In this document: one piece after another, positions 7,410 through 32,081 of the stretch
How the letters are laid out: every line of letters starts with the position of its first letter
Position numbering within the stretch: the stretch's first letter is position 1
Assembly: GCA_937872925.1 (NCBI GenBank)
Contig: CALMUT010000259.1
Span: forward strand, 1-64,000
DNA: 64,000 bases
Direction: 5' to 3'
From: an uncultured Myxococcales bacterium
GTDB lineage: Bacteria; Myxococcota_A; Polyangia; Polyangiales; Polyangiaceae
Made by a program: the position numbers and the translations under genes
The notes under the pieces: generated by a model
The model's database searches: none
The model's input: only the letters and a program-made list of their open reading frames with translations
Told to the model about the DNA's origin: nothing

Positions 7410-9869
<2,460 letters not shown>

Positions 9870-20548: not shown

Positions 20549-20852
20549 TGAAGGGCAGGTTACCATCGAAATAGCGGCCGAGCGAGCAGGACCTCCCGAT
20601 GCACGTGGGGCGGCCGTCGAGCGACTGCTTTGCGAAGCACCCGCCGTCATGGCCACCGCGCAATACAACGCGGCCCAAACGCGGCGCGAAGCACGCGGGC
20701 AAGAGTGCGTCTCGCTCCAACGGTCGCCGCAACGATGGTTGGAGTCGTTCGCACAAATGCGCACGTGCTTCGGGCACGCGTCTGGTTTCGTTCGCGAGCA
20801 GCACGGACGCGGCGCGCCTGCGCGACTCGAACGAAGGGGCTGTCCCACTCGC
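20549..20852. other. Gap between nucleotidyltransferase pair and Y RNA
   Basis: About 300 bp with several overlapping open frames but no recognisable gene, tRNA or hairpin. It lies downstream of the terminal Y RNA candidate on the minus strand and could contain its 3' processing signals. Confidence 0.4.
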
Positions 20853-20997
20853 TCGACCTGGTGTGAACACTTTGGCTTAGTGTTGTCATGACGGATTAAT
20901 AGTCCGTTGCTCTACCCAACTGAGCTACACGTTCTTTCATGAGCGTGACGGGATTTGAACCCGCGACTGACGGGTCGAATGACTTCGACCAGGTCGA
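20853..20997 (-). ncRNA. Y RNA candidate A with permuted tRNA-like module
   Basis: A 145-nt RNA read on the minus strand. Its ends pair perfectly over 9 bp (TCGACCTGG with CCAGGTCGA). Next to this helix stand GGTCGAAG on the 5' strand and GTTCACA on the 3' strand, resembling the Ro-binding loop of Y RNAs (GGUCCGA / UUCACU). Inside is a circularly permuted tRNA: T arm GCGGG-TTCAAAT-CCCGT, acceptor strand CACGCTC, cap ATGAAA, acceptor strand GAACGTG (6 of 7 pairs), D arm GCTCAGTTGGGTAGAGC, then anticodon arm ACGGA-CTATTAA-TCCGT with ATT in the anticodon place. Not a normal tRNA gene because the halves are in reverse order. Less certain than the copies near the Ro60-like gene. Confidence 0.68.
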
Positions 20998-21085
20998 TAT
21001 CCTCGGAACGCACGAAACCGATACGCCCGACAGAACGCGTGAGCGCTGCATGGCGTAGGCACGTGTGCCGACTATTGGACACCGG

Positions 21086-21156
21086 AGCGACGAGCGGGGA
21101 TCGCACCCGCATCTCGAGAGTGGCGCTCTCGGATCCTACTGTTGGACGACCGTCGC
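21086..21156 (-). tRNA. tRNA-Gly(GCC)-like
   Basis: Full cloverleaf: acceptor GCGACGG/TCGTCGC, D arm GTCC-AACAGTA-GGAT, anticodon arm CGAGA-GCGCCAC-TCTCG (anticodon GCC, C at position 33), T arm GCGGG-TGCGATC-CCCGC, discriminator T as in bacterial tRNA-Gly. The D loop lacks the GG pair and the T loop has G instead of T at position 55. CCG, not CCA, follows. Confidence 0.85.
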
Positions 21157-21248
21157 AAAAACAAGAGGCGCGCGCTCCGCACTGGGGTGCTTTGGCACTC
21201 CGCGCGAACGCGCGCTCCGCACAAACAAGAGGTACCCGCTCCGAACCA

Positions 21249-21570
21249 AGCGCGCGGCTGCGCGCCCGCGGCGAGCGAACGCGAGTCGCGTCGGGGTGCT
21301 CGAGGGGCGGTGAGCCCCCGCGTGGAGGATCCCGGTGGGGGCGACCCCATCCGGAATCCAAGCGCGCGGCTGCGCGCCCGCGGCGAGCGAGTGCGAGTCG
21401 CGTCGGGGTGCTCGAGGGGCGGTGAGCCCCTCGTGGAGGATTCCGGTGGGGGCGACCCCATCCGGAATCCAAGCGCGCGGCTGCGCGCCCGCGGTGAGCG
21501 AACGCGAGTCGCGTCGGGGTGCACGAGGGGCGGTGAGCCCCCTCGTGGAGGATTCCGGTGGGGGCGGGCG
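21249..21570. repeat. 111-bp tandem repeat in tRNA spacer, three copies
   Basis: Copies begin at 21249, 21360 and 21471 (AAGCGCGCGGCTGCGCGCCC). Each holds CGAGCGAACGCGAG-like text, then a hairpin (GGGGCGGTGAGCCCC) and GTGGAGGATTCCGGTGGGGG. Two diverged relatives of the same unit, with a different but still complementary hairpin, occur beside Y RNAs at about 29935-30058 and 31060-31138. The long overlapping open frames here are by-products of the repeat. Confidence 0.92.
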
Positions 21571-21632
21571 GGCGGGATGAGAATAGTGGCTAGCAAACGC
21601 GGACGCGCCCGGGCGTGCACGCTCACCAGCAG

Positions 21633-21716
21633 CGGAAGCAGGAGGACTCGCACCCCACACCTTGCGGTGCGCACTCGTTAGCAACGAGGCTCGCTCCTAT
21701 GAGCGATTCTACTTCC
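21633..21716 (-). tRNA. tRNA-Ser(GCT)-like, long variable arm
   Basis: Acceptor GGAAGTA/TGCTTCC pairs fully, the anticodon loop TTGCTAA gives GCT, and a class-II variable arm CACC-GCAA-GGTG supports serine. The D arm is aberrant (TCGCTC-ATAG-GAGCGA, a 6-bp stem with a 4-nt loop) and the T loop reads TGCGAGT. No CCA is encoded. Confidence 0.8.
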
Positions 21717-21722
21717 AATTAG

Positions 21723-21795
21723 TACGGGGCCGGAGGATCGAACTCCGCTGTGCCGCTTTGTAAGAGCGGTGCCGTCACCAGACGACAAGCCCCGC
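21723..21795 (-). tRNA. tRNA-Val(TAC)
   Basis: Complete and canonical: acceptor GCGGGGC/GCCCCGT, D loop TCTGGTGA with GG, anticodon arm CCGCT-CTTACAA-AGCGG (anticodon TAC), T arm CGGAG-TTCGATC-CTCCG, discriminator A. No CCA encoded. Confidence 0.92.
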
Positions 21796-21808
21796 ATGGG
21801 CTTTCCGG

Positions 21809-21878
21809 TCCGCTCGCCAGGGATCGCACCTGGAGGCTCTGCATATCAGACAGAGCTGAGCCACTAGCTCGCGAGCGG
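21809..21878 (-). tRNA. tRNA-Ile(GAT)-like
   Basis: Acceptor CCGCTCG/CGAGCGG is a perfect 7-bp stem, D arm AGCT-AGTGGCTC-AGCT, anticodon arm TCTGT-CTGATAT-GCAGA (anticodon GAT), T arm CCAGG-TGCGATC-CCTGG, discriminator A. The T loop has G at position 55. Confidence 0.85.
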
Positions 21879-21919
21879 ATAGGTTTCGCGCAACTCGCGC
21901 AACAGCCGACCCGACAAAT

Positions 21920-21941
21920 TGGCCCACCCCGGGGTGGGCCA
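21920..21941. terminator. Strong perfect hairpin in tRNA array
   Basis: Perfect palindrome TGGCCCACCCC/GGGGTGGGCCA (11 bp), flanked by AAAT and GTTTGAAAA. It could terminate transcription in either direction or act as a processing hairpin between tRNA-Trp and tRNA-Ile. Confidence 0.6.
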
Positions 21942-21968
21942 GTTTGAAAAGTTCGCGCAGCGAACGCA

Positions 21969-22040
21969 TGGCGGGTTCGCGAGGAATCGCACCCCGTCCT
22001 CCGGACTTGGAAACCGGTTGGTCACTATGACCTCGAACCC
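21969..22040 (-). tRNA. tRNA-Trp(CCA), encoded GCCA end
   Basis: Acceptor GGGTTCG/CGAACCC perfect, discriminator G and encoded CCA as in bacterial tRNA-Trp. Anticodon arm CCGG(T)-TTCCAAG-(T)CCGG reads CCA, with a T-T mismatch closing the loop. The D arm is tiny (GGTCA-TAG-TGACC). T arm CGGGG-TGCGATT-CCTCG, again with G55. Confidence 0.82.
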
Positions 22041-22125
22041 AAACAACGTAATTGCCGGTGCTGCGTGACGTGCGGGGCATCCCTCGACTCCACGAGTAGA
22101 CAGCACCAGCCAGAGGCTCCAAACT

Positions 22126-22707
22126 TTGTCTGGCATGACGACCAGCGCGCCCCACCGCCGCTACACCATCGCGGAGTTCGTCGAACTCGAGGCGTACGCA
22201 AATGTGCGGCACGAGTTTCTCGACGGCCAAATCTACGCCATGGCGGGTGGGACTCCCGAGCACGGGACCTACGCAGCCAATGTGATCGCGTTGATCTCCG
22301 CGCAGCTGGGCGACAAGCCCTGCCGCGTGCAAACTTCGGACGTGCGGATCCGGGTGCAGGCCACGGGCCTGGACACCTATCCGGATGCAAGCGTGGTCTG
22401 CGGCAAGGCCGAGCGCGACTCGGACGATGAAAACGCGATCGTGAATCCAATCGTGTTGGTGGAGATCTTGAGCGAGAGCACCGCCGCCTATGATTTGGGC
22501 GACAAGCTCGTGCACTACAAGCAGATCCCCGCGTTGCGCGAAGTCCTCTTCGTCGACCCAAGCGACCAGTCCGTGTCCGTGATGCGCCGGGACACGGAGG
22601 GCAGCTGGACCACGCATCGGGCAGCTCGCACGGAGTCGATCGAACTGCAGTCGATCGAGTGTCGCTTGGCGGTAGACGCCGTATTTCGTGATCCACTGGC
22701 GGACTGA
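22126..22707 (+). CDS. Uma2-family (DUF820) PD-(D/E)XK-fold protein
   Basis: A 193-residue protein of the Uma2/DUF820 family. RYTIAEFVELEAYANVRHEFLDGQIYAM (given as RYTIAEFVELEA and VRHEFLDGQIYAM) opens the fold, TYPDASVVCG near residue 88 carries the family Asp, and NPIVLVEILSESTAAYDLGDK near 106 carries the E-x-L motif. The fold is nuclease-like, but the cellular function of the family, common in multicellular bacteria, is unknown. It is the only clear gene on the plus strand inside the tRNA array, lying between tRNA-Trp and tRNA-Ala, and so is probably an insertion. ATGs at 22126 and 22135 are both possible. Confidence 0.88.
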   Translation: MSGMTTSAPHRRYTIAEFVELEAYANVRHEFLDGQIYAMAGGTPEHGTYAANVIALISAQLGDKPCRVQTSDVRIRVQATGLDTYPDASVVCGKAERDSDDENAIVNPIVLVEILSESTAAYDLGDKLVHYKQIPALREVLFVDPSDQSVSVMRRDTEGSWTTHRAARTESIELQSIECRLAVDAVFRDPLAD

Positions 22708-22742
22708 GTGCGTAGGGATCCGCCAGCGGCTGAAAGCAGCAG

Positions 22743-22813
22743 TGGAGCGGCCGGGAGTTGCACCCGGATCTCTGGTTTGCGACACCAGTGTCTTGCTATT
22801 GGACGACCGTCCC
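22743..22813 (-). tRNA. tRNA-Ala(CGC)-like
   Basis: Anticodon arm CTGGT-GTCGCAA-ACCAG (anticodon CGC), T arm CCGGG-TGCAACT-CCCGG with G55, acceptor GGGACGG/CCGCTCC with one A-C mismatch, discriminator A. D loop AATAGCAA lacks GG. Confidence 0.8.
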
Positions 22814-22867
22814 GAACGCCGCGACGCGCGCGGCTGAAAAAGAACGCCGCGACGCGCGGCTCGTAGT

Positions 22868-22943
22868 TGGGGTGACCGACGGGATTTGAACCCATACCTG
22901 CAGGGCCACAACCTGCCGTGCGACCCATTCACACCGCGGCCAC
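22868..22943 (-). tRNA. tRNA-His(GTG), encoded CCA
   Basis: Acceptor GTGGCCG/CGGTCAC, D loop GAATGGGTC, anticodon arm GCAGG-TTGTGGC-CCTGC (GTG), T arm ATGGG-TTCAAAT-CCCGT, discriminator C followed by CCA. C73 fits histidine; the position -1 base in the gene is T rather than G. Confidence 0.92.
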
Positions 22944-22985
22944 AAATGAAGATCGTCGCCGCCCGTTTCGGCGACACCAATCCAG

Positions 22986-23058
22986 TGCGTCGGGTTGGGA
23001 TCGAACCAACGCCTCCGGTTTTTCAAACCAGCGCTTCCACCAGGTTAGCTTCCGACGC
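22986..23058 (-). tRNA. tRNA-Phe(GAA)
   Basis: Acceptor GCGTCGG/CCGACGC perfect, anticodon arm CTGGT-TTGAAAA-ACCGG (GAA), T arm GTTGG-TTCGATC-CCAAC, discriminator A. D loop contains GGTGG. CTG follows instead of CCA. Confidence 0.92.
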
Positions 23059-23129
23059 AAGAGTGCACCCCAACGCGCTGGGGCGCTTCGGTGCCTCGCG
23101 CGAACGCGACGAACCACAAGAATAAACAG

Positions 23130-23197
23130 TCGCTACGCGCGGATTCGCACCGCGTCCCGAAGCCTTATGAGAGCTTGGTCCACCTTGGGTCGTAGCG
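23130..23197 (-). tRNA. tRNA-Met(CAT)-like with reduced D arm
   Basis: Acceptor CGCTACG/CGTAGCG perfect, anticodon arm AAGCT-CTCATAA-GGCTT (CAT), T arm CGCGG-TGCGAAT-CCGCG (G55), discriminator A. Only 14 nt separate the acceptor from the anticodon stem, so the D arm is much reduced. CAT could also be a tRNA-Ile2 type. Confidence 0.8.
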
Positions 23198-23226
23198 AAG
23201 TCCGCGCCCAAAAGCCGGGCGCGGTC

Positions 23227-23300
23227 TGGCGTCCCCACGGGGAATCGCACCCCGATTGCGAGATTGAAAATCTCGAGTCCTGCTCTTAGACGATGGGGAC
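23227..23300 (-). tRNA. tRNA-Glu(TTC), encoded GCCA
   Basis: Acceptor GTCCCCA/TGGGGAC, D arm GTCT-AAGAGCA-GGAC, anticodon arm CGAGA-TTTTCAA-TCTCG (TTC), T arm CGGGG-TGCGATT-CCCCG, discriminator G and encoded CCA. Stems are perfect, but D loop lacks GG and T loop has G55. Confidence 0.9.
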
Positions 23301-23364
23301 AAACGTGAAGCGGCGCTGGGGTACTGCGGCGCTTCGCGCACCCGCGCCGAACCACAAGAATGAG

Positions 23365-23449
23365 TACTCGAGGTGAGAGTCGAACTCACAAGCTCTCTAT
23401 GGAGCGACTGGTTCTGAGCCAGCTGCGTTTTCCGTTTCGCCACTCGAGT
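23365..23449 (-). tRNA. tRNA-Leu(CAG)
   Basis: Acceptor ACTCGAG/CTCGAGT, D arm GCG-AAACGGAAAA-CGC, anticodon loop CTCAGAA (CAG), class-II variable arm GCTC...GAGC, T arm GTGAG-TTCGACT-CTCAC, discriminator A. Canonical; no CCA. Confidence 0.92.
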
Positions 23450-23474
23450 GTGTGGGTCGGGTCAACCCGAACCG

Positions 23475-23550
23475 TGGAACGGGAATCAGGACTCGAACCT
23501 GAACCTCAAGGCTTCAAAGGCCTGCGCGCTGCCGATTGCGCCATTCCCGC
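23475..23550 (-). tRNA. tRNA-Gln(TTG), encoded CCA
   Basis: Acceptor GCGGGAA/TTCCCGT, D arm GCGC-AATCGGCA-GCGC, anticodon loop CTTTGAA (TTG), T arm TCAGG-TTCGAGT-CCTGA, discriminator T then CCA. The discriminator is unusual for glutamine (normally G). Confidence 0.9.
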
Positions 23551-23583
23551 AGACGCGACTGGTGCCTGCCGGTCACGTATTTG

Positions 23584-23655
23584 CTGCACGGGTAAGATTC
23601 GAACTTACGGTCCCGCGGTTAACAGCCGCGTGCCTTTCCACTTGGCTACCGTGCA
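23584..23655 (-). tRNA. tRNA-Asn(GTT)
   Basis: Acceptor TGCACGG/CCGTGCA perfect, D arm GCC-AAGTGGAAA-GGC, anticodon arm CGCGG-CTGTTAA-CCGCG (GTT), T arm GTAAG-TTCGAAT-CTTAC, discriminator G. Canonical; no CCA. Confidence 0.93.
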
Positions 23656-25123: not shown

Positions 25124-25702
25124 TCAGGCGCCGGATTCTTGCACGCCGTTCAAACTGATCATGTAGTCGCGCTTTTCGGAGGTCTTTGCGAAATCTTGAA
25201 GCGCGCGCGCAGCCGTTGCTGCCACCAGGGCGATCAGCGGCAAATGCTCGCCACCCTCGCAGGTCGCCTGCCCTTCTTCGTCTTCGGCGTCGGCGACGAA
25301 ACCTTCGTCCCAACGCACCAAGCCAAAAGTGCCGTCCGCGGAGATCGCCGCGTGCAGCAGGGCCTTGTTATTCTCGCGCGCATACGTACTGAGCAGCACG
25401 CGACTCTTTTGATTGTCGAAGGCGTCGATGACGAGATCAGCCTTGGCGAGCAGGGTGTCGACGTTGTCTTCCGACACACGCACGCCAAAGGCCTCACTCT
25501 TGATGCCGTGGAAGTTCAAGAGCTGAAGCTTCAGGGCCTCGGCTTTGTTCTTCCCCACGGACTGCTTCACGTAGGCCTGCGACAGCAGGTTCTTTGACTC
25601 GACGCGGTCGAAGTCCACGAAGCAGAGCGTGGCGTCTAAGTTGCGACACAGAAGTGCCGCAAGCGAACCGAGGGCGCCCACACCGCAGAAGACAATGCGC
25701 AT
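25124..25702 (-). CDS. Minimal E1/ThiF-type adenylating enzyme
   Basis: A 192-residue E1-like protein, predicted to adenylate the C-terminus of a ubiquitin-like partner. The nucleotide-binding loop GVGALGS is at residues 7-13, followed by FVDFDRVESKNLLSQ (acidic and Arg residues that contact ATP) and VGKNKAEALK. VIDAFDNQKSR matches the E1 D-x-D-N-x-x-x-R pattern. A Cys in TCEGGEHLPL near residue 145 sits where the thioester Cys of E1/MoeB proteins lies. It is shorter than ThiF/MoeB (about 240-250) and has no fused domain. It is the last gene of the five-gene set with a Ubl (8-bp gap), JAMM and Ro60-like protein. Confidence 0.85.
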   Translation of the reverse strand: MRIVFCGVGALGSLAALLCRNLDATLCFVDFDRVESKNLLSQAYVKQSVGKNKAEALKLQLLNFHGIKSEAFGVRVSEDNVDTLLAKADLVIDAFDNQKSRVLLSTYARENNKALLHAAISADGTFGLVRWDEGFVADAEDEEGQATCEGGEHLPLIALVAATAARALQDFAKTSEKRDYMISLNGVQESGA

Positions 25703-25709
25703 GGGCGCC

Positions 25710-25985
25710 TCAGTTCTCCACGCAGCGGCTCAGGCCGTAGCGCGCTGCGCCGAAGGGGACCTTCGGACGCAGGTAGATGCGACCCGTGCCGTGGCCGCCG
25801 AAGCGGTCGACCATGTAGTAGTCGAAGGCGTTGTCCGGCAGGTTTGCGATGTGCAAACCACGCAGGCCGCCGGTACGGATGACTTCGATCGCAATACGGC
25901 GCACGTCCGCATCCGACACGTAGTCGTCCAGTGGACGCGGGTAGTCCGCGCTGTAGCCGTTGTAAGTGATGTTCAAGATTGCCAT
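25710..25985 (-). CDS. Predicted ubiquitin-like (beta-grasp) protein
   Basis: A 91-residue protein. The ATG at 25985 has an excellent site (AAAGGAGG, 9 nt upstream). Secondary-structure reading is beta-beta-alpha-beta-beta: AILNITYNGYSADYP, then DADVRRIAIEVIRTG, then FDYYMVDRF and GRIYLRPKVPFG, which fits a beta-grasp and resembles Prok_Ub/PRTRC-C-type proteins (YNG...DVRR). The C-terminus is LSRCVEN rather than Gly-Gly, so activation by E1 would need trimming after VPFG or would use a different tail. Its place between JAMM and E1 is the main support for the Ubl call. Confidence 0.65.
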   Translation of the reverse strand: MAILNITYNGYSADYPRPLDDYVSDADVRRIAIEVIRTGGLRGLHIANLPDNAFDYYMVDRFGGHGTGRIYLRPKVPFGAARYGLSRCVEN

Positions 25986-26043
25986 GGAACGGACCCTCCT
26001 TTCGGGCCTTAGTTGGGTGCGAAAAACTCGGACCAGACTTTGT

Positions 26044-26433
26044 TTATTTAGATTGTTTGGATGTGGCGGTTGGTTCGTCATCGGCGAACGGCATGCCTGA
26101 CGCCAGACGCAGCAAGCTGGACCACCAAGGTTCGTCCTCGACCGTCGCCACGACGTCGCCACGTTTCGTGATCATGCCCGTGGGCGCGAGCACCGAGAAT
26201 CGCAACGTCTTGCCTAGCGCCGTTTCTAGCGCCTGCATCGTCGTCTCGTCTTCTCTAGAGAAAGCCAAGGGGCCATTGGGATGGCTGTGACTCAACTCTT
26301 CAAGTTCGTCGCGATGCTCCCAGATCATTTGCCAGCGCTTGCGAGAGTCCGGCAACTGGCTTGGGCTTTGCGACGCGTCGCTGAAGAGCACCGCGCCGCC
26401 CTTGCCGATCAGGAAGAACACTTCACGTTTCAT
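26044..26433 (-). CDS. JAMM/JAB-domain metallopeptidase
   Basis: A 129-residue JAB/MPN protein. The zinc motif HSHPNGPLAFSREDE (residues about 51-65) has His-x-His and, at the expected spacing, Ser-x-x-Asp; the N-terminal Glu may be Glu4 (MKREVFF). Such enzymes cleave isopeptide or Ubl-precursor bonds. The ATG overlaps the stop of the upstream gene (ATGA), so the two are translationally coupled. The Ubl gene follows 58 bp downstream. The C-terminus ends in a short charged tail (DDEPTATSKQSK). The set JAMM-Ubl-E1 recalls the PRTRC-type arrangement. Confidence 0.88.
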   Translation of the reverse strand: MKREVFFLIGKGGAVLFSDASQSPSQLPDSRKRWQMIWEHRDELEELSHSHPNGPLAFSREDETTMQALETALGKTLRFSVLAPTGMITKRGDVVATVEDEPWWSSLLRLASGMPFADDEPTATSKQSK

Positions 26434-27386
26434 GCCCGCCTCGTGATGTTGAGCTGAGCCGTATCAAAACCTTCTCGGATCACCGAAGGTAGGCTCTCCA
26501 AAGTGACTTCACGGTCAGAACCGCTGAGACAGATGCCAGCGTCGATGACCTGTAGCGAGACTTCATCGACGACGCTGATGAAGCGTTCGCCCATGAAGCG
26601 ATAGGTCACTTCTAGCATGCCTCTGCCCAGGGACCGAGACCCGACCAAGTCGGCACCCGCGGCATCCAGCGCTCGTGTTGCGCGATCGATGGGGGTCCCA
26701 GCATCGGCTGCGCTCCGGGGGCGCTGCCGTCCGCTGCGGTGCTGGACCACTCGCCCCTCGGCGGCGTCCCAAGCCTGCACCCGCACGCGCTCCAGACGCC
26801 GGCGTTCTTCCAAATCTAAGAGCAACGACGTCGCAACCTCGCGGCCACCGCTGGCCAATTCCAAGATAGCGCCGGCGATCTCCCGGGGAGATACGGCGAT
26901 GTCGAGAGCGCGCCCAACTCCCGTGACCAATGCAAACGCAAATGCCGCGCGAAGGGATGCCGCCACCCCTTTGATCTCGTCGATGCCGCGCACGTCTTCG
27001 AGCGCTTGGCGCACCGTGTCTTCGGCCTCGGATTCGAACTCGAGAGCGTCAAACACCAGATCGCCGGAATGCCAGCGTCGGGCAATGACGGGAGAAAGCA
27101 GCGCGGGCTCTTCTGCAGGCACCAGCTCGACTCGTGCGAGCTGACGCCCACCCGAGAAGAGCCAACCATGAGCGAAGTGCCCACGCACGGCTTCGAGGCC
27201 CTCCAAATCGGTCGCGTCCGCGTTGTCCACAATTGTGGCCACGCGGCCCTTGAAGCTGAAGCGATACCAGCCCGGCGGTTGCTGCACGTCTACGGCGTAG
27301 CGTCGGCTCGCATCATCCACGCGGGTGCCACCAAAGTATGGCAGCACCCGCGCTTCGTCTGTTTTTAGGAACTTACGAAAGTCCAC
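26430..27386 (-). CDS. Conserved protein of the Ro60-like/Ubl operon, unknown function
   Basis: A 318-residue protein without signal peptide or membrane segment. No catalytic domain was recognised. The middle (residues about 110-200) is helical and Ala/Leu/Glu-rich; the C-terminal 90 residues look like a compact alpha/beta domain: YRFMGERFISVVDE, then LQVIDAGICLSGSDREVTLE and SLPSVIREGF. One Cys lies in DAGICLSG; an E2-like role is conceivable from position in the operon, but the usual E2 active-site pattern is not seen. It overlaps the Ro60-like gene by 14 bp and the JAMM gene by 4 bp, so it is firmly part of this operon. Confidence 0.75.
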   Translation of the reverse strand: MDFRKFLKTDEARVLPYFGGTRVDDASRRYAVDVQQPPGWYRFSFKGRVATIVDNADATDLEGLEAVRGHFAHGWLFSGGRQLARVELVPAEEPALLSPVIARRWHSGDLVFDALEFESEAEDTVRQALEDVRGIDEIKGVAASLRAAFAFALVTGVGRALDIAVSPREIAGAILELASGGREVATSLLLDLEERRRLERVRVQAWDAAEGRVVQHRSGRQRPRSAADAGTPIDRATRALDAAGADLVGSRSLGRGMLEVTYRFMGERFISVVDEVSLQVIDAGICLSGSDREVTLESLPSVIREGFDTAQLNITRRA

Positions 27387-29148
27387 GAGGCAACTCCAAC
27401 AGAGGAGTGGACATGACGCGCTCCACGAGTCCGAATTGCTTCTTCGGCGCGTTTCGCGGTGCTTCGAGCAACGCCTTCAGCACACGCGGCACTTGATACG
27501 GATCGTCGAACTGTTCGATGGATACTTCACTGAACGGAATGTTCAGCGCAGTCGCGGCTTCCCGCACTGTGTTTCCACGCAGTACGGATACGTTGAGTAA
27601 CAGCGCCATGGCACTCGGATCGTAGCCAGCTCGACGGAACCCTTCGGCAAAATTGCTGCCGCTCTCTCCCGCTTCATCGCCGACAACGATGACGACTAGC
27701 TTCGCATCCAAAGAAATCTCAACACCAGCACGTCGCAGCGCATGCACGCCGGACGAATGCAGCGTTCCACCTTCAGCGCGGATGCCGCTGAGCATGTGCT
27801 GGATCGCCGCGCGGCTTGGAGCCTTGGGGCGGAGCACCGTGCCCATGGTGTCAAAGCTGGCGATGTGCACCTTGTCCGCTGGGAAGCCGGCCAAGATGCG
27901 GGACAGCGCTTCTTTGGATTGTTCGATGGCGCCCTGCATGCTTCCGGATTTGTCGATCAGGAACATGACGTGCACGTCCACCTCTCGAGTCGCTTCGGTG
28001 ACTGCTTTTTGAGCAGCGACATCGGCGGCCTCTTCGAGCTTTTCGCGCACGCCCTGGTCGCGCACGTTCTTGGCGATGTTGAGGGCGCGTTGATCCGTGG
28101 ATGCGGCGATTGCGGTCTCCCAACGTTCGCGGACTTCCGGCGCTGCAAGCAGCCCCAGTTCTTCGAGAGTCGGCGTCATGATGCGCAGATCGCGATCCGA
28201 GAGCGTGGGCAGCACGGCCACCATGATGGCAGGCGTGAGGCCCATGTCTTTCGGCAATCGGCCCACCACGTCTTTGAACTTCAGACGCTGGGACTCGATG
28301 GCCTCGCAGATTTCCACTTCGCTCAAACCGTCGAACCGTTCGCGCTTCTGCAAGTTGAGGCCTTCCAGCCCCACGCTGCGGTGACCCGCAGCGGCTTGTT
28401 TCTGCTTCCAGCCCAAGATCTCGAAGAACCCCTGACTGCTCGGCTTGTAGCCAGCTTTGCGCGCGATCTTCTTGATGGTTTCCTTGTAGCCGGCGCTCAC
28501 GAGACCTTCCAACATCGGTTGGTTTTCTTCGCGCACCCGCAGCCACTTTTGCGCCGCGGCTTTCCAACGGCCCAGGGGCGGCTTTTTTGCGGCGGGATCG
28601 CCAAACCCCGCCAAGCGGTTGAGCTCGACGATTTCCGGCGTTTCCAAGAGCTGCGCCACACGCAATACGCTTTTGGGCGTCATCATGCGCTGCGACTTTT
28701 TTTCGTAGGTCAGCAGCATGGCTTCGCCAATTCGGCGAAAGTCGTCATCGTAGAAGCCAACGCTGCCGTCGTCGTCGTGTACGGGCTGACCGGAGCGTTG
28801 CTGCACCAGCATCAGCGCCGCAGCGGCGACTTTCAGGTCACGCCAATCCGTCTCTTTCAGCGCGTAGCTGGCGAAGTGCGCCGCAAGCTCCACGTTCAGC
28901 TCGTAGATCTCGAGCAGCTTCGAGTAGAGGGTCGCCGCCGCAGGTACGAACAGACCCGGGCGCACCTGCACTCCTTGAGTGCCCGCCGCGCGAGCGCGAC
29001 CGCGCACACCACGGCGGGGATGCCACACGCCGCCAATGTCAACGCCGGGGCGGTTGTGCCATAGGTGCGCGGACGAAGAGAGCACCAAGTCCAGGAGCTT
29101 CTCCGCGGGACCCATCTGTGATTCCGGAAGGGGCTGTGGGTTCGTCAT
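27373..29148 (-). CDS. Ro60-like protein: TROVE-type helical domain plus vWA domain
   Basis: A 591-residue protein. The start at 29148 has GGAGG upstream; extension to 29301 would read through a structured RNA. Residues about 90-345 are HEAT-like helices with TROVE-style features (SYALKETDWRDLKVAAAALM, LGRWKAAAQKWLRVREENQP, GLTPAIMVAVLPTL followed by a Leu-rich segment). Residues about 390-560 form a vWA domain with a full MIDAS: DKSGSM, the Thr in EGGTLHSSG, and Asp in VVGDEAGES. This is the order found in Ro60/Rsr, which binds Y RNAs and misfolded RNA. Its divergence from Deinococcus Rsr is large, so the TROVE call rests partly on the adjacent Y RNAs. First gene of the Ubl operon. Confidence 0.8.
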   Translation of the reverse strand: MTNPQPLPESQMGPAEKLLDLVLSSSAHLWHNRPGVDIGGVWHPRRGVRGRARAAGTQGVQVRPGLFVPAAATLYSKLLEIYELNVELAAHFASYALKETDWRDLKVAAAALMLVQQRSGQPVHDDDGSVGFYDDDFRRIGEAMLLTYEKKSQRMMTPKSVLRVAQLLETPEIVELNRLAGFGDPAAKKPPLGRWKAAAQKWLRVREENQPMLEGLVSAGYKETIKKIARKAGYKPSSQGFFEILGWKQKQAAAGHRSVGLEGLNLQKRERFDGLSEVEICEAIESQRLKFKDVVGRLPKDMGLTPAIMVAVLPTLSDRDLRIMTPTLEELGLLAAPEVRERWETAIAASTDQRALNIAKNVRDQGVREKLEEAADVAAQKAVTEATREVDVHVMFLIDKSGSMQGAIEQSKEALSRILAGFPADKVHIASFDTMGTVLRPKAPSRAAIQHMLSGIRAEGGTLHSSGVHALRRAGVEISLDAKLVVIVVGDEAGESGSNFAEGFRRAGYDPSAMALLLNVSVLRGNTVREAATALNIPFSEVSIEQFDDPYQVPRVLKALLEAPRNAPKKQFGLVERVMSTPLLELPRGLS

Positions 29149-29219: not shown

Positions 29220-29368
29220 TTTTCCGTGTCCGAGTGAAGAAGCCATTAACTTGTGTGTCAGTTCCATAGACTGATGCCTTTACCGTTTGGCTACAAATCA
29301 TTGCTGATTCGGACGGATTCGAACCGCCATTGTGTGCGTGTAGGGCCTCGTCGGCCGGACACGGAAAA
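29220..29368 (-). ncRNA. Y RNA 1, directly upstream of the Ro60-like gene
   Basis: A 149-nt RNA ending 71 bp before the Ro60-like start codon. Ends pair over 13 bp (TTTTCCGTGTCCG with CGGACACGGAAAA). Then GGCCGACGAGGCC on the 5' side faces GGCTTCTTCACT on the 3' side; GAGGCC/GGCTTC form a second helix, leaving the loop GCCGAC / TTCACT that resembles the Ro site of Y RNAs (GGUCCGA, CUUCACUUGAC). The body is a permuted tRNA: T arm GGCGG-TTCGAAT-CCGTC, acceptor CGAATCA, short cap, acceptor TGATTTG, D arm GCCAAACGGTAAAGGC, anticodon arm TCAGT-CTATGGA-ACTGA (ATG). Confidence 0.85.
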
Positions 29369-29381
29369 GATGTAGACGCGA

Positions 29382-29562
29382 GTCGCCCAGGGGTACTTTG
29401 GCACTCAGCGTGGCCGCGACGGATCGCGGAAGTGAATCCAAGCTGTCGCCCAGGGGTACTTTGGCACTCAGCGTGACCGCGACGGACCGCGGAAGTGAAT
29501 CCAAGCTGTCGCCCAGGGGTACTTTGGCACTCAGCGTGGCCGCGACGGATCGCGGAAACAAG
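29382..29562. repeat. 63-bp tandem repeat, nearly three copies
   Basis: Units start at 29382, 29445 and 29508 (GTCGCCCAGGGGTACTTTGG). Each carries the GGGGTNCTTTGGCACTC element also dispersed in other spacers of the island. It stands between Y RNA 1 and Y RNA 2, in the region where the Y RNA 1 promoter must lie. The remaining text to 29720 holds nothing I recognise. Confidence 0.95.
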
Positions 29563-30108: not shown

Positions 30109-30639
30109 TCAAGCGACACCGGTGCGCGGCATCGCCGCGCAGAAGTCGTGCCATTCCGGCGGCGCGTTCTTCACGTCGAAGAGCACCGGCGGCAGCGGCA
30201 GACTCGTCGGGCGCTGCGGACGCTGACGCGGACGCATGCCGACTTCTTCCAGAGTCTTGTTCGCCTTCTTCGCGTTGCAGGCGTAGCAGGCGGTGACGAT
30301 GTTTTCCCAGACCGTGAGACCACCGCGAGAGCGCGGGATCACGTGGTCATAGGTCAGCTGACTCACCGGCAGCTTCAGATGGCAGTACGCGCAGCTGAAA
30401 CCGTCACGCAGGTACACGTTGATGCGCGAGAACCGCACGCCACGTTTGTGTACCTTCACGTTCTTCTTCAGGCGAATCACGGCAGGCAGCGCCATGCTGA
30501 CCGACGGCGAGTGTACTTCTTCGTCGTAGTTCACCACCGCGTCGGCCTTGCCCAAGTAGAGCAGCGTGATCGCGTCCTGCCACGACACGACGCAACGCGG
30601 CGCGTACCATGGCGTCAAAACAAGCGTGCGCGCATTCAT
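30109..30639 (-). CDS. HNH endonuclease
   Basis: A 176-residue HNH nuclease. The ATG at 30639 has a very strong site (AAGGAGGTGACCG). The zinc/HNH core spans residues about 80-130: CAYCHLKL, then LTYDHVIPRSRGG with the catalytic DH, and WENIVTACYACNAKK with the second Cys pair. The N-terminal block NARTLVLTPWYAPRCVVSWQ is shared by a widespread family of short stand-alone HNH proteins. It lies between tRNA-Tyr and Y RNA 2, in the same direction. HNH proteins inside tRNA arrays are common in phages, where they act as homing enzymes; here the family is usually chromosomal, so a housekeeping or conflict role is equally possible. Confidence 0.9.
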   Translation of the reverse strand: MNARTLVLTPWYAPRCVVSWQDAITLLYLGKADAVVNYDEEVHSPSVSMALPAVIRLKKNVKVHKRGVRFSRINVYLRDGFSCAYCHLKLPVSQLTYDHVIPRSRGGLTVWENIVTACYACNAKKANKTLEEVGMRPRQRPQRPTSLPLPPVLFDVKNAPPEWHDFCAAMPRTGVA

Positions 30640-30718
30640 CGGTCACCTCCTTCGGCAGTTTGTTGCGTGCTCCAGTTGAGTTGCGCCGCCCGCGACACCA
30701 TTGCCGCGAAGCAGCCGG

Positions 30719-30798
30719 TGGGATGATCAGGAATCGAACCTGCCTAGCCATTCAGGCGCCCGGTTTACGGCCGGACCTGCGTCCCAGCGCCTCATCCC
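30719..30798 (-). tRNA. tRNA-Tyr(GTA)
   Basis: Acceptor GGGATGA/TCATCCC perfect, anticodon region CCGG-CCGTAAA-CCGG (GTA, C at 33), class-II variable arm GCC-TGAAT-GGC, T arm CAGG-TTCGATT-CCTG, discriminator A then CCG. D loop has GGG. Confidence 0.88.
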
Positions 30799-30872
30799 AA
30801 AATCTTCTCCCCAGCCCACCGCTCCGCGCGGGGGTGCTTTGGCATTCCGAGCTCGCGCTCGAAGAGAAGGAT

Positions 30873-30980
30873 TTTCCCGCGTCCGAGTGAGAAAGCCATT
30901 TCCTTCATCGGTTGGTAACGATTGCTCTCCATGAGCCAAGGTGGACTCGAACCACAAATTGGTCGGCCGGACGCGGGAAA
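30873..30980 (-). ncRNA. Y RNA 3, short form
   Basis: A 108-nt relative. The closing helix is TTTCCCGCGTCCG with CGGACGCGGGAAA: compared with copy 1, GTGTCC/GGACAC has become GCGTCC/GGACGC, a compensatory change. GGCCGACC and TCTCACT preserve the Ro-like loop. The body has a T arm (TGTGG-TTCGAGT-CCACC) and acceptor strand TTGGCTC, then a cap and GAGAGCAA, which pairs imperfectly, followed directly by an anticodon-like hairpin (ATCG-TTACCAAC-CGAT). The D arm is missing. Confidence 0.78.
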
Positions 30981-31138
30981 GTTTGTATTGTGCGGCGCTC
31001 GCGGTGCTCAGAACACCAAAGCACCCCAGTGCGGCTTCGTGCGGCCCACGCACTGCCCCGCGAGCGAATGCGAGCCCGCGCTGAGCGAGCGAAGCGGCGT
31101 TGGGGGTCTGGGGGTTTACCCCCAGGGAGGACTACGGC
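30981..31138. repeat. Duplicated Y RNA upstream segment (copy 2)
   Basis: Near-identical to 29871-30058 for its first 75 bp and again around the hairpin (CTGGGGGTTTACCCCCAG, then GGAGGACTACGGCGG). It stops at the homopolymer tract at 31139. Confidence 0.85.
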
Positions 31139-31176
31139 GGGGGGGGGGGGGGGGGGGGGGGGGGCGCCCCCCCCCC
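31139..31176. repeat. Homopolymer tract: 26 G, CG, 10 C
   Basis: A run of 26 G, then CG, then 10 C. The equivalent place in the other copy of the segment reads CGGGGGTGCGCGGGCGGG, so this tract is not conserved. It may be a sequencing or assembly artefact and breaks the neighbouring reading frame. Confidence 0.9.
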
Positions 31177-31177
31177 T

Positions 31178-31696
31178 GGGGGCGAACCAAAACAACCCGC
31201 TTCGTAGGCCGATGCCTGCCTTCCGGCAGGACAGAGAGAAAGCCGCGCGCCGGCGTTTCCGCCGGGCGCGGTTGACCTTTTGCAGCACGCCATCTTCGTC
31301 CACGGTGAAGCGCCCCCAGCGGCTATTCCTATCTGGGTGATGGTCTTCACCGACGTACTCGATGCTATCGAGCAAATGATCGAAGAGAATGTGCCGACCC
31401 GCGGTCGTGCGGTCGTCGAAACGCCGTCGCAGCAAAGAGTACGACTCGTTCCAGGGAATGCCCGCGCGTGACGAAAGAAAGCGGTACGCCGGTGCCAGGT
31501 TGTCGCGAAAGTATTTCGGGACTGGCTGGCGCTTGGGCAAGACAGTCGCGTCCCAAGTGTCGGGGTCCCGGCAGAGCGCCCGCAGGTGCTCACGCACTCG
31601 GACCCGCTCGACCTGGGAGCTGAAGCGCCTGAACCAAGCATTGTGGAAGTACCGCCCGCCTTCAATCACGGTACGGGCCAGGTTTTTGGTGGACAA
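31178..31696 (-). CDS. Hypothetical basic protein, 3' end uncertain
   Basis: About 173 residues up to the homopolymer tract. The TTG at 31696 is preceded by AAAGGA at a normal distance; the frame extends 30 codons upstream only by reading through tRNA-Asp. The protein is rich in Arg, His and aromatic residues (EGGRYFHNAWFRRF, RDNLAPAYRFLSSRAGIPW, DRTTAGRHILFDHLLDSIEY) with a basic end (NRARRKRRR), which suggests nucleic-acid binding. I do not recognise the family. It sits between tRNA-Asp and Y RNA 3, in the same direction. The natural stop is probably lost in the poly-G region; the open frame that continues to 30905 through it is not credible. Confidence 0.55.
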
Positions 31697-31731
31697 AAGT
31701 GTCCTTTCTAACGGAAGCAGCAGGCTTCCGG

Positions 31732-31803
31732 CGCCCGCGGAGGGAATTGAACCCTCCTCGCCGGATCGACAATCCGGTCGCCTCACCAGATGCGTACGCG
31801 GGC
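31732..31803 (-). tRNA. tRNA-Asp(GTC)
   Basis: Acceptor GCCCGCG/CGCGGGC perfect, D loop with TGGTG, anticodon arm CCGGA-TTGTCGA-TCCGG (GTC), T arm GAGGG-TTCAATT-CCCTC, discriminator G. Canonical; CCG follows. Confidence 0.93.
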
Positions 31804-32010
31804 AAGCGTGGGTGACCGTGGCAGGTCACCCATGACCTGTTCACAGTGAACAGGTCGTAAAAAGAGACTGCGCGCGCTCTTTGCGGGCGCAGCCCCTTCT
31901 CGTCGCATAAGTTGTCAAAGTGCCATGACGCAAAGTGCGCCGAGCCCGGCTGGGCTTGCTCACGCGTCCGAGGACGAGCAAGCGGGTGTCTCGCGATCCG
32001 AAGACCGCAG

Positions 32011-32081
32011 TGGGGCATCAGGGGATCGAACCCTGATCAACCGGTTAAAAGCCGGTAGCTCTACCGTTGAGCTAATGCCCC
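32011..32081 (-). tRNA. tRNA-Lys(TTT)
   Basis: Acceptor GGGGCAT/ATGCCCC perfect, D arm GCTC-AACGGTA-GAGC, anticodon arm ACCGG-CTTTTAA-CCGGT (TTT), T arm CAGGG-TTCGATC-CCCTG, discriminator A. Canonical; CTG follows. First tRNA of the island in the direction of transcription. Confidence 0.94.

Follow-up and report, generated by a model that had tools for sequence, protein, structure and literature searches.

The 64,000-nucleotide stretch of contig CALMUT010000259.1 analysed here (the window), from an uncultured Myxococcales bacterium, carries on its minus strand a compact five-gene module (25124-29148) encoding a Ro60-like protein, a 318-aa protein (P318), a JAMM metallopeptidase, a candidate ubiquitin-like protein (Ubl) and a minimal E1 enzyme. 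The five genes almost certainly form one functional unit. The explanation that accounts best for the observations, to which as a whole we give about an even chance, is that the Ro60-like protein would form a ribonucleoprotein (RNP) platform equipped with its own Ubl cascade, which would act on tRNA-like RNPs.

The first gene of the module (27373-29148, minus strand, as are all five) encodes a 591-aa protein with an N-terminal TROVE-like helical-repeat domain and a C-terminal vWA domain; homologues place its start at 29148, an upstream ATG in the list of open reading frames giving an alternative of 642 aa. It overlaps by 14 bp the P318 gene (26430-27386), which overlaps by 4 bp the gene for the 129-aa JAMM/JAB metallopeptidase (26044-26433). 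The Ubl candidate (91 aa, 25710-25985) follows after a 58-bp gap and the E1 (192 aa, 25124-25702) after a further 7 bp. The initial annotation had described this layout, and its strand, overlaps and gaps were reproduced to the base; its assignments of a TROVE-type vWA protein, a JAMM peptidase and a minimal E1, and its proposal that the five genes are coupled, were borne out by the structure predictions, motif conservation and neighbourhoods presented below. It had missed the link to tRNA arrays, the distribution in giant phages, the make-up of P318 and the correlation between Ubl tails and JAMM genes. No convincing match to P318 or to the 91-aa protein was found in Pfam, NCBIfam or PHROGs.

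In Pfam searches, the 591-aa protein matched VWA_2 (7.8e-9), and the residues of its metal ion-dependent adhesion site (MIDAS; D399, S401, S403, T462 and D491) are intact and invariant in 60 homologues. None of 42 aligned family members matched the Pfam TROVE family PF05731, hence the name Ro60-like rather than membership of PF05731. Profile-profile comparison with true TROVE proteins gave 92% probability over 344 columns when the vWA domain was included, and 20% (P 1e-3), too weak by itself, with the N-terminal part without vWA; reversed controls gave 0.2-0.3%. An AlphaFold2 model built from a 60-sequence alignment (predicted local distance difference test, pLDDT, 90.4; predicted template modelling score 0.86) recovered the TROVE fold: the top nine Foldseek matches were Ro60/TROVE structures, and the matches include 1yvp (Ro autoantigen with RNAs, 6.9e-9), 9kop (TROVE domain), 9nep and 9l5y (Ro60 of Thermus phage phiLo). 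VIA-align Z scores against Ro60/TROVE structures ranged from 13.7 to 15.1 over 426-444 residues (9kop, 15.1 over 426 residues; human Ro60, 14.8 over 429; Deinococcus Rsr, 14.6 over 428). Since isolated vWA domains reach equally high Z scores, what argues for a TROVE-like fold is that the alignment is long and extends across the N-terminal helical repeat. On this model, the 591-aa protein very probably has a Ro60/TROVE-like fold.

The module is recurrent. A genome scan yielded 70 loci, nearly all in Myxococcota and including cultured Myxococcus, Corallococcus, Archangium, Hyalangium and Pyxidicoccus; a genome of the same genus as the window (G001) also carries it. A viral scan yielded 33 contigs of up to 618 kb, most with the whole module, whose proteins are 36-42% identical to those of the window. 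In 101 of the 103 loci with enough sequence, the Ro60-like gene is followed on its own strand by the P318 gene, and all five genes stand on one strand in 51 loci, in the order Ro60-like, P318, JAMM, Ubl, E1 in 50 of these. In a tree, the window belongs to a bacterial clade of 22 sequences (support 1.0) that is apart from a phage clade; the few contigs of metagenome-assembled genomes nested in the latter are probably phage contigs in bins. Terminase-like genes (phrog_2) were found in 12 of 20 viral records, and the terminase model PF03237 showed few phage hallmarks among the viral records. Because phrog_2 also matches most control bacteria, phage identity rests on the terminase data together with the size of the viral contigs, the IMG/VR classification and the Caudoviricetes record KX853510 (Virus Rctr197k), which combines dozens of tRNAs with a ThiF-like gene and a Ro60-like sequence, the latter annotated as a misc_feature instead of a coding gene. 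One further record, titled Comamonas sp. KCTC 72670 (L083, BNCN01000002.1), has a Myxococcaceae-like module and is probably mislabelled or contaminated.

The genes are also retained jointly where they are not contiguous. Archangium and Corallococcus have their Ubl-E1 pair about 5 kb downstream, with other genes in between. We picked 27 genomes in which the pair had not been found at the locus or the module was incomplete there: all 27 have kept the Ubl, as a single copy, and the E1 adjoins it in every one. The pair was in the locus in one case (L023), further downstream (10-24 kb, same contig, same strand) in 10, and on another contig in 16. In several of the genomes with the pair on another contig (L019, L024, L026 and L086), the Ro60-like gene is more than 50 kb from either contig end, so these parts of the module are truly separated. 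Among 379 genomes of the phylum, 14 have both the Ro60-like gene and the Ubl, two and one have only one of them, and 362 have neither (Fisher, 1.6e-22); about half of the positives come from the phage-like clade. Because related sequences do not count as independent, this and the other P values given here overstate the case and serve as a guide only.

The JAMM protein matched Prok-JAB weakly (2.5e-4, under the Pfam cut-off). Its motif E-x(n)-H-S-H-P-x(n)-S-x-x-D is complete, E4, H49, H51, S59 and D62 being present in at least 97% of 90 sequences. The E1 matched ThiF in Pfam (7.8e-21) and has a Rossmann adenylation core with catalytic residues; GxGxxG, D30/D32, N38, K53, D93/D96-N97 and Cys148 in TCEGG are invariant in 54 sequences. 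CxxC zinc pairs are absent from its 192 residues, and all its scores with the MoeB/ThiF equivalog models fell under the cut-off. The conserved part of the 91-aa protein ends in P77-F78-G79, to which the window copy adds the 12-residue tail AARYGLSRCVEN; F78 and G79 occur in at least 97% of 63 sequences, and the tails vary from 0 to more than 50 residues. What makes this protein a Ubl candidate, presumably with a beta-grasp fold, is its E1 and JAMM partners, its invariant C-terminal glycine followed by a variable tail, and the succession of strands and helix that its sequence appears to show.

Tail length is correlated with the presence of the JAMM gene. Scored within loci rather than whole genomes, a Ubl ending exactly in PFG was found in five of the five loci in which JAMM is missing or broken (L014, L075, L104, L105 and L106), compared with 9 of 54 loci with JAMM (Fisher, 4e-4). 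In L014, the JAMM gene (about 8096-8332, minus strand) has lost, by an internal deletion, the stretch that separates the Glu motif from HSHP. Inclusion of L023, which lacks JAMM and P318 at the locus, has a one-residue tail and may have a JAMM elsewhere in its genome, changes the count to five of six (P 0.0019). This pattern is expected if JAMM trims a Ubl precursor, as the BilC JAMM does for the precursor BilA (PMC11354881), and such trimming is quite likely here.

P318 had been described as an unknown protein. This stood as far as library searches are concerned, and comparison with sequences of the Protein Data Bank, Pfam and viral models gave nothing useful for its C-terminal domain; structure prediction, in contrast, revealed two domains that had been overlooked. 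In the AlphaFold2 model (pLDDT 91.3), an N-terminal beta domain is followed by an S1/OB-like domain (about 60-118), long helices and a C-terminal alpha-beta4-alpha domain. The S1/OB-like domain matched exosome Rrp4-type chains in Foldseek (5e-4) and IF1 in VIA (Z 7.4), which makes P318 a candidate RNA-binding protein. The C-terminal domain contains the motif D282-x-G284-x-C286-L287, whose residues are present in at least 97% of 102 sequences, 31 of them from viral contigs. Cys286 comes after strand 279-282 and before helix 299-308, which begins 13 residues past it; it thus has the features expected of the active site of an E2 enzyme, a cysteine in a G-x-(I/V)-C-L context after the fourth strand, then a helix. 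Compared by eye with UBE2D2, the domain resembles E2 enzymes in how its elements are ordered, in the G-x-C-L context and in having a helix after the cysteine. From these modelled features, the possibility that P318 is an E2-like carrier is evenly balanced.

The module of the window stands amid a run of tRNAs on its own strand, nine downstream and three upstream, plus degenerate ones. The downstream array (20828-23655, minus strand; ARAGORN and Rfam) includes Val, Ile, Ala, His, Phe, Glu, Leu, Gln and Asn tRNAs among others, several with low scores, and tRNA-Tyr, tRNA-Asp and tRNA-Lys lie upstream (30717-32081, minus strand; same programs). Many tRNAs of this array score 25-55 bits, compared with mostly 50-76 bits elsewhere in the genome, so the array looks supplementary rather than the main tRNA set. 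The same setting was observed in other loci: tRNAs are present in 26 of the 33 viral loci (266 in total, 262 on the strand of the module) and in 20 of 83 bacterial loci (84 of 85 on that strand), and in 44 of these 46 loci all tRNAs are in line with the module (sign test, 3e-11). Four of the separate Ubl-E1 loci have three to five tRNAs within 1.5 kb, and the Hyalangium locus has 25 downstream. A TROVE gene was reported in 20 of 29 archaeal tRNA clusters (PMC6333295), and some jumbo phages carry TROVE proteins reported as RNA-repair platforms (PMC7824862); the TROVE passages of these two papers make no mention of a ubiquitin-like system.

Several loci have tRNAs, or truncated elements resembling them, upstream of the Ro60-like gene. 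In the window, a 55-base element (29246-29300, minus strand; Rfam tRNA, 31.0 bits for a gathering score of 29), apparently without a T arm, is about 100 bases upstream of the gene, and in L059 a 53-base element (7646-7698) is about 320 bases upstream; such an element is a possible Y-RNA-like partner. Other features were observed in these surroundings. A repeat of about 60 bases (cgcccaggggtactttggcactcagcgtg...) is present in three direct copies at 29385-29560, upstream of the module. An HNH endonuclease gene (30109-30639, minus strand) lies inside the tRNA array of the window; in L023 and L111, a homologue is found next to either the module or the tRNA array. Elsewhere in the source genome, contig C116 carries another run of about eight tRNAs (7517-8396), mostly low-scoring. 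A gene that recurs in four phage loci (L222, 9831-10586, plus strand) looks by eye like a 3'-5' exoribonuclease.

Taken together, these data suggest the following mechanism. The Ro60-like ring/vWA protein would be an RNA-binding platform around which a dedicated ubiquitin-like cascade acts. JAMM would cut the Ubl precursor back to ...PFG and may release Ubl from targets as well. The minimal E1 would adenylate Ubl and may hold it on Cys148; P318 would then take Ubl on Cys286 and place it on a target held by the Ro60-like RNP, which could be the RNP or proteins attached to bound tRNA or tRNA-like RNA. In giant phages and myxobacteria, the tRNAs or tRNA-like RNAs might in this way be quality-controlled, stored or turned over. 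The Ro60-like ring, the S1/OB domain and the tRNA arrays together suggest tRNA-type clients, which we regard as fairly probable, and we lean slightly less firmly towards protein conjugation by Ubl. That a Ubl tag may control the Ro60-like particle, as proposed in the initial annotation, is plausible.

Several points weigh against this mechanism, besides the dependence among relatives noted above. First, the evidence comes from sequences and models, and the beta-grasp fold of the 91-aa protein is presumed. Second, the Ubl ends in a single Gly, PFG and not GG, and showed no relation to ThiS/MoaD profiles, the outcome being the same as for the reversed control. Third, the HPN motif is absent from the alignment of the C-terminal domain of P318, for which reason P318 was not filed as an E2, and this domain had no E2 match in profile searches, nor did structure searches with the full-length model show an E2 among the matches listed; in the structure searches this is because the S1/OB domain fills the match lists. 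The Pfam E2 families PF14460 and PF14461 had no matches in the phylum, and the controls were equally silent, which makes this result uninformative. Fourth, the Ro60-like gene has no neighbouring tRNAs in most Myxococcaceae loci.

Among the alternatives, the one that fares best concerns purpose, the cascade working as just described: in giant phages, the module would protect tRNAs against host defence, by replacing or repairing those cut by nucleases, and would have been kept in myxobacteria for defence or stress response. The distribution in giant phages, the tRNA arrays and the RNA-repair role reported for TROVE proteins of jumbo phages (PMC7824862) are in favour of it; however, we noticed no RNA ligase or kinase as a recurrent neighbour of the module, and the age and strong support of the bacterial clade speak against a recent prophage. 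We place this purpose somewhat short of an even chance. A special case of the platform mechanism, in which Ubl would modify only the Ro60-like protein or P318 as an assembly switch with no external substrates, would agree with the joint retention of the five genes even where they are split, and with the lack of a recurrent extra substrate gene in phage loci; we consider this version improbable.

Urm1 and TtuB act in tRNA thiolation, and a sulfur carrier is a third alternative: the E1 would thiocarboxylate Ubl, which would pass sulfur to a tRNA presented by P318 and the Ro60-like protein, Cys286 of P318 carrying a persulfide and not a Ubl thioester. The tRNA-array setting, the minimal MoeB/ThiF-type E1, the S1/OB-like domain and invariant cysteine of P318 and the Urm1 and TtuB precedents agree with this proposal. 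In contrast, the Ubl has one C-terminal Gly instead of GG and no profile relation to ThiS/MoaD, of which the genome has its own, and variable tails with a dedicated JAMM suit the maturation of a modifier; in addition, no recurrent tRNA thiolase or rhodanese was noticed beside phage modules, where no systematic search was made. The tail/JAMM pattern, together with a single terminal Gly and an invariant cysteine at an E2-like position, leads us to favour Ubl conjugation over sulfur transfer, and we consider the sulfur carrier, persulfide included, quite improbable. Finally, passenger genes do collect in tRNA arrays, but coincidental neighbours without joint function are extremely unlikely given the fixed order across clades with Ro60-like proteins about 40% identical, the tail/JAMM correlation and the retention of Ubl-E1 in 27 of 27 genomes (16 on another contig), the joint retention being the ground on which a bystander cluster was rejected.

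The module resembles several known systems in part. The Ro60/Rsr proteins, including that of phage phiLo, share the fold over 426-444 residues, a vWA domain with intact MIDAS and a phage and tRNA-cluster setting, reported for TROVE genes in PMC7824862 and PMC6333295; the present family differs by its 12-16% identity, by being missed by Pfam TROVE and by its link to Ubl, E1 and JAMM genes; we came across no report of such a link in a Ro60 system. Bacterial E1-E2-Ubl-JAMM systems, Bil (BilABCD) and its relatives, likewise combine a Ubl, an E1 and a JAMM with an E2, here a candidate, and JAMM processing of a Ubl precursor, reported for Bil (PMC11354881), is likely here too. The present module differs by its minimal E1 (192 aa), its Ro60-like partner, its tRNA arrays and an E2-like domain that is fused to an S1/OB-like domain and unmatched to known E2 families. 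Urm1-Uba4, TtuB-TtuC, ThiS-ThiF and MoaD-MoeB share with it a ThiF/MoeB-type E1 and, for Urm1 and TtuB, the link to tRNA; they differ from it in that here a single terminal Gly is followed by a tail, the E1 has no CxxC and ThiS/MoaD profiles do not match. The PRTRC system comprises a ThiF family protein, a JAB protein, a Ubl-like protein C and a protein B, a similar set of parts; the present E1 matched PRTRC_ThiF far under the cut-off (2.8e-7), whereas Ubl and P318 had no match to PRTRC models, and we know of no Ro60-like member in PRTRC.

A full-text search of open-licence papers found no description of a Ro60-type RNP linked to ubiquitin-like modification in prokaryotes. The module consists of parts of known kinds in a combination not found described, with Ubl and P318 families that are absent from the three family libraries searched. 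It might represent a new class of system, in which a Ro60-type platform directs Ubl modification of an RNP, possibly of RNA-bound proteins or even RNA, and through which giant phages and myxobacteria control tRNAs or tRNA-like RNAs, a proposal that we regard as tentative and rather doubtful. If it is true, an RNA-tied modification cascade would join the list of prokaryotic ubiquitin-like systems, and the module, which recurs in cultured myxobacteria and in giant phages, would offer a testable route to the role of Ro60 in bacteria and to the presence of TROVE genes in tRNA arrays.

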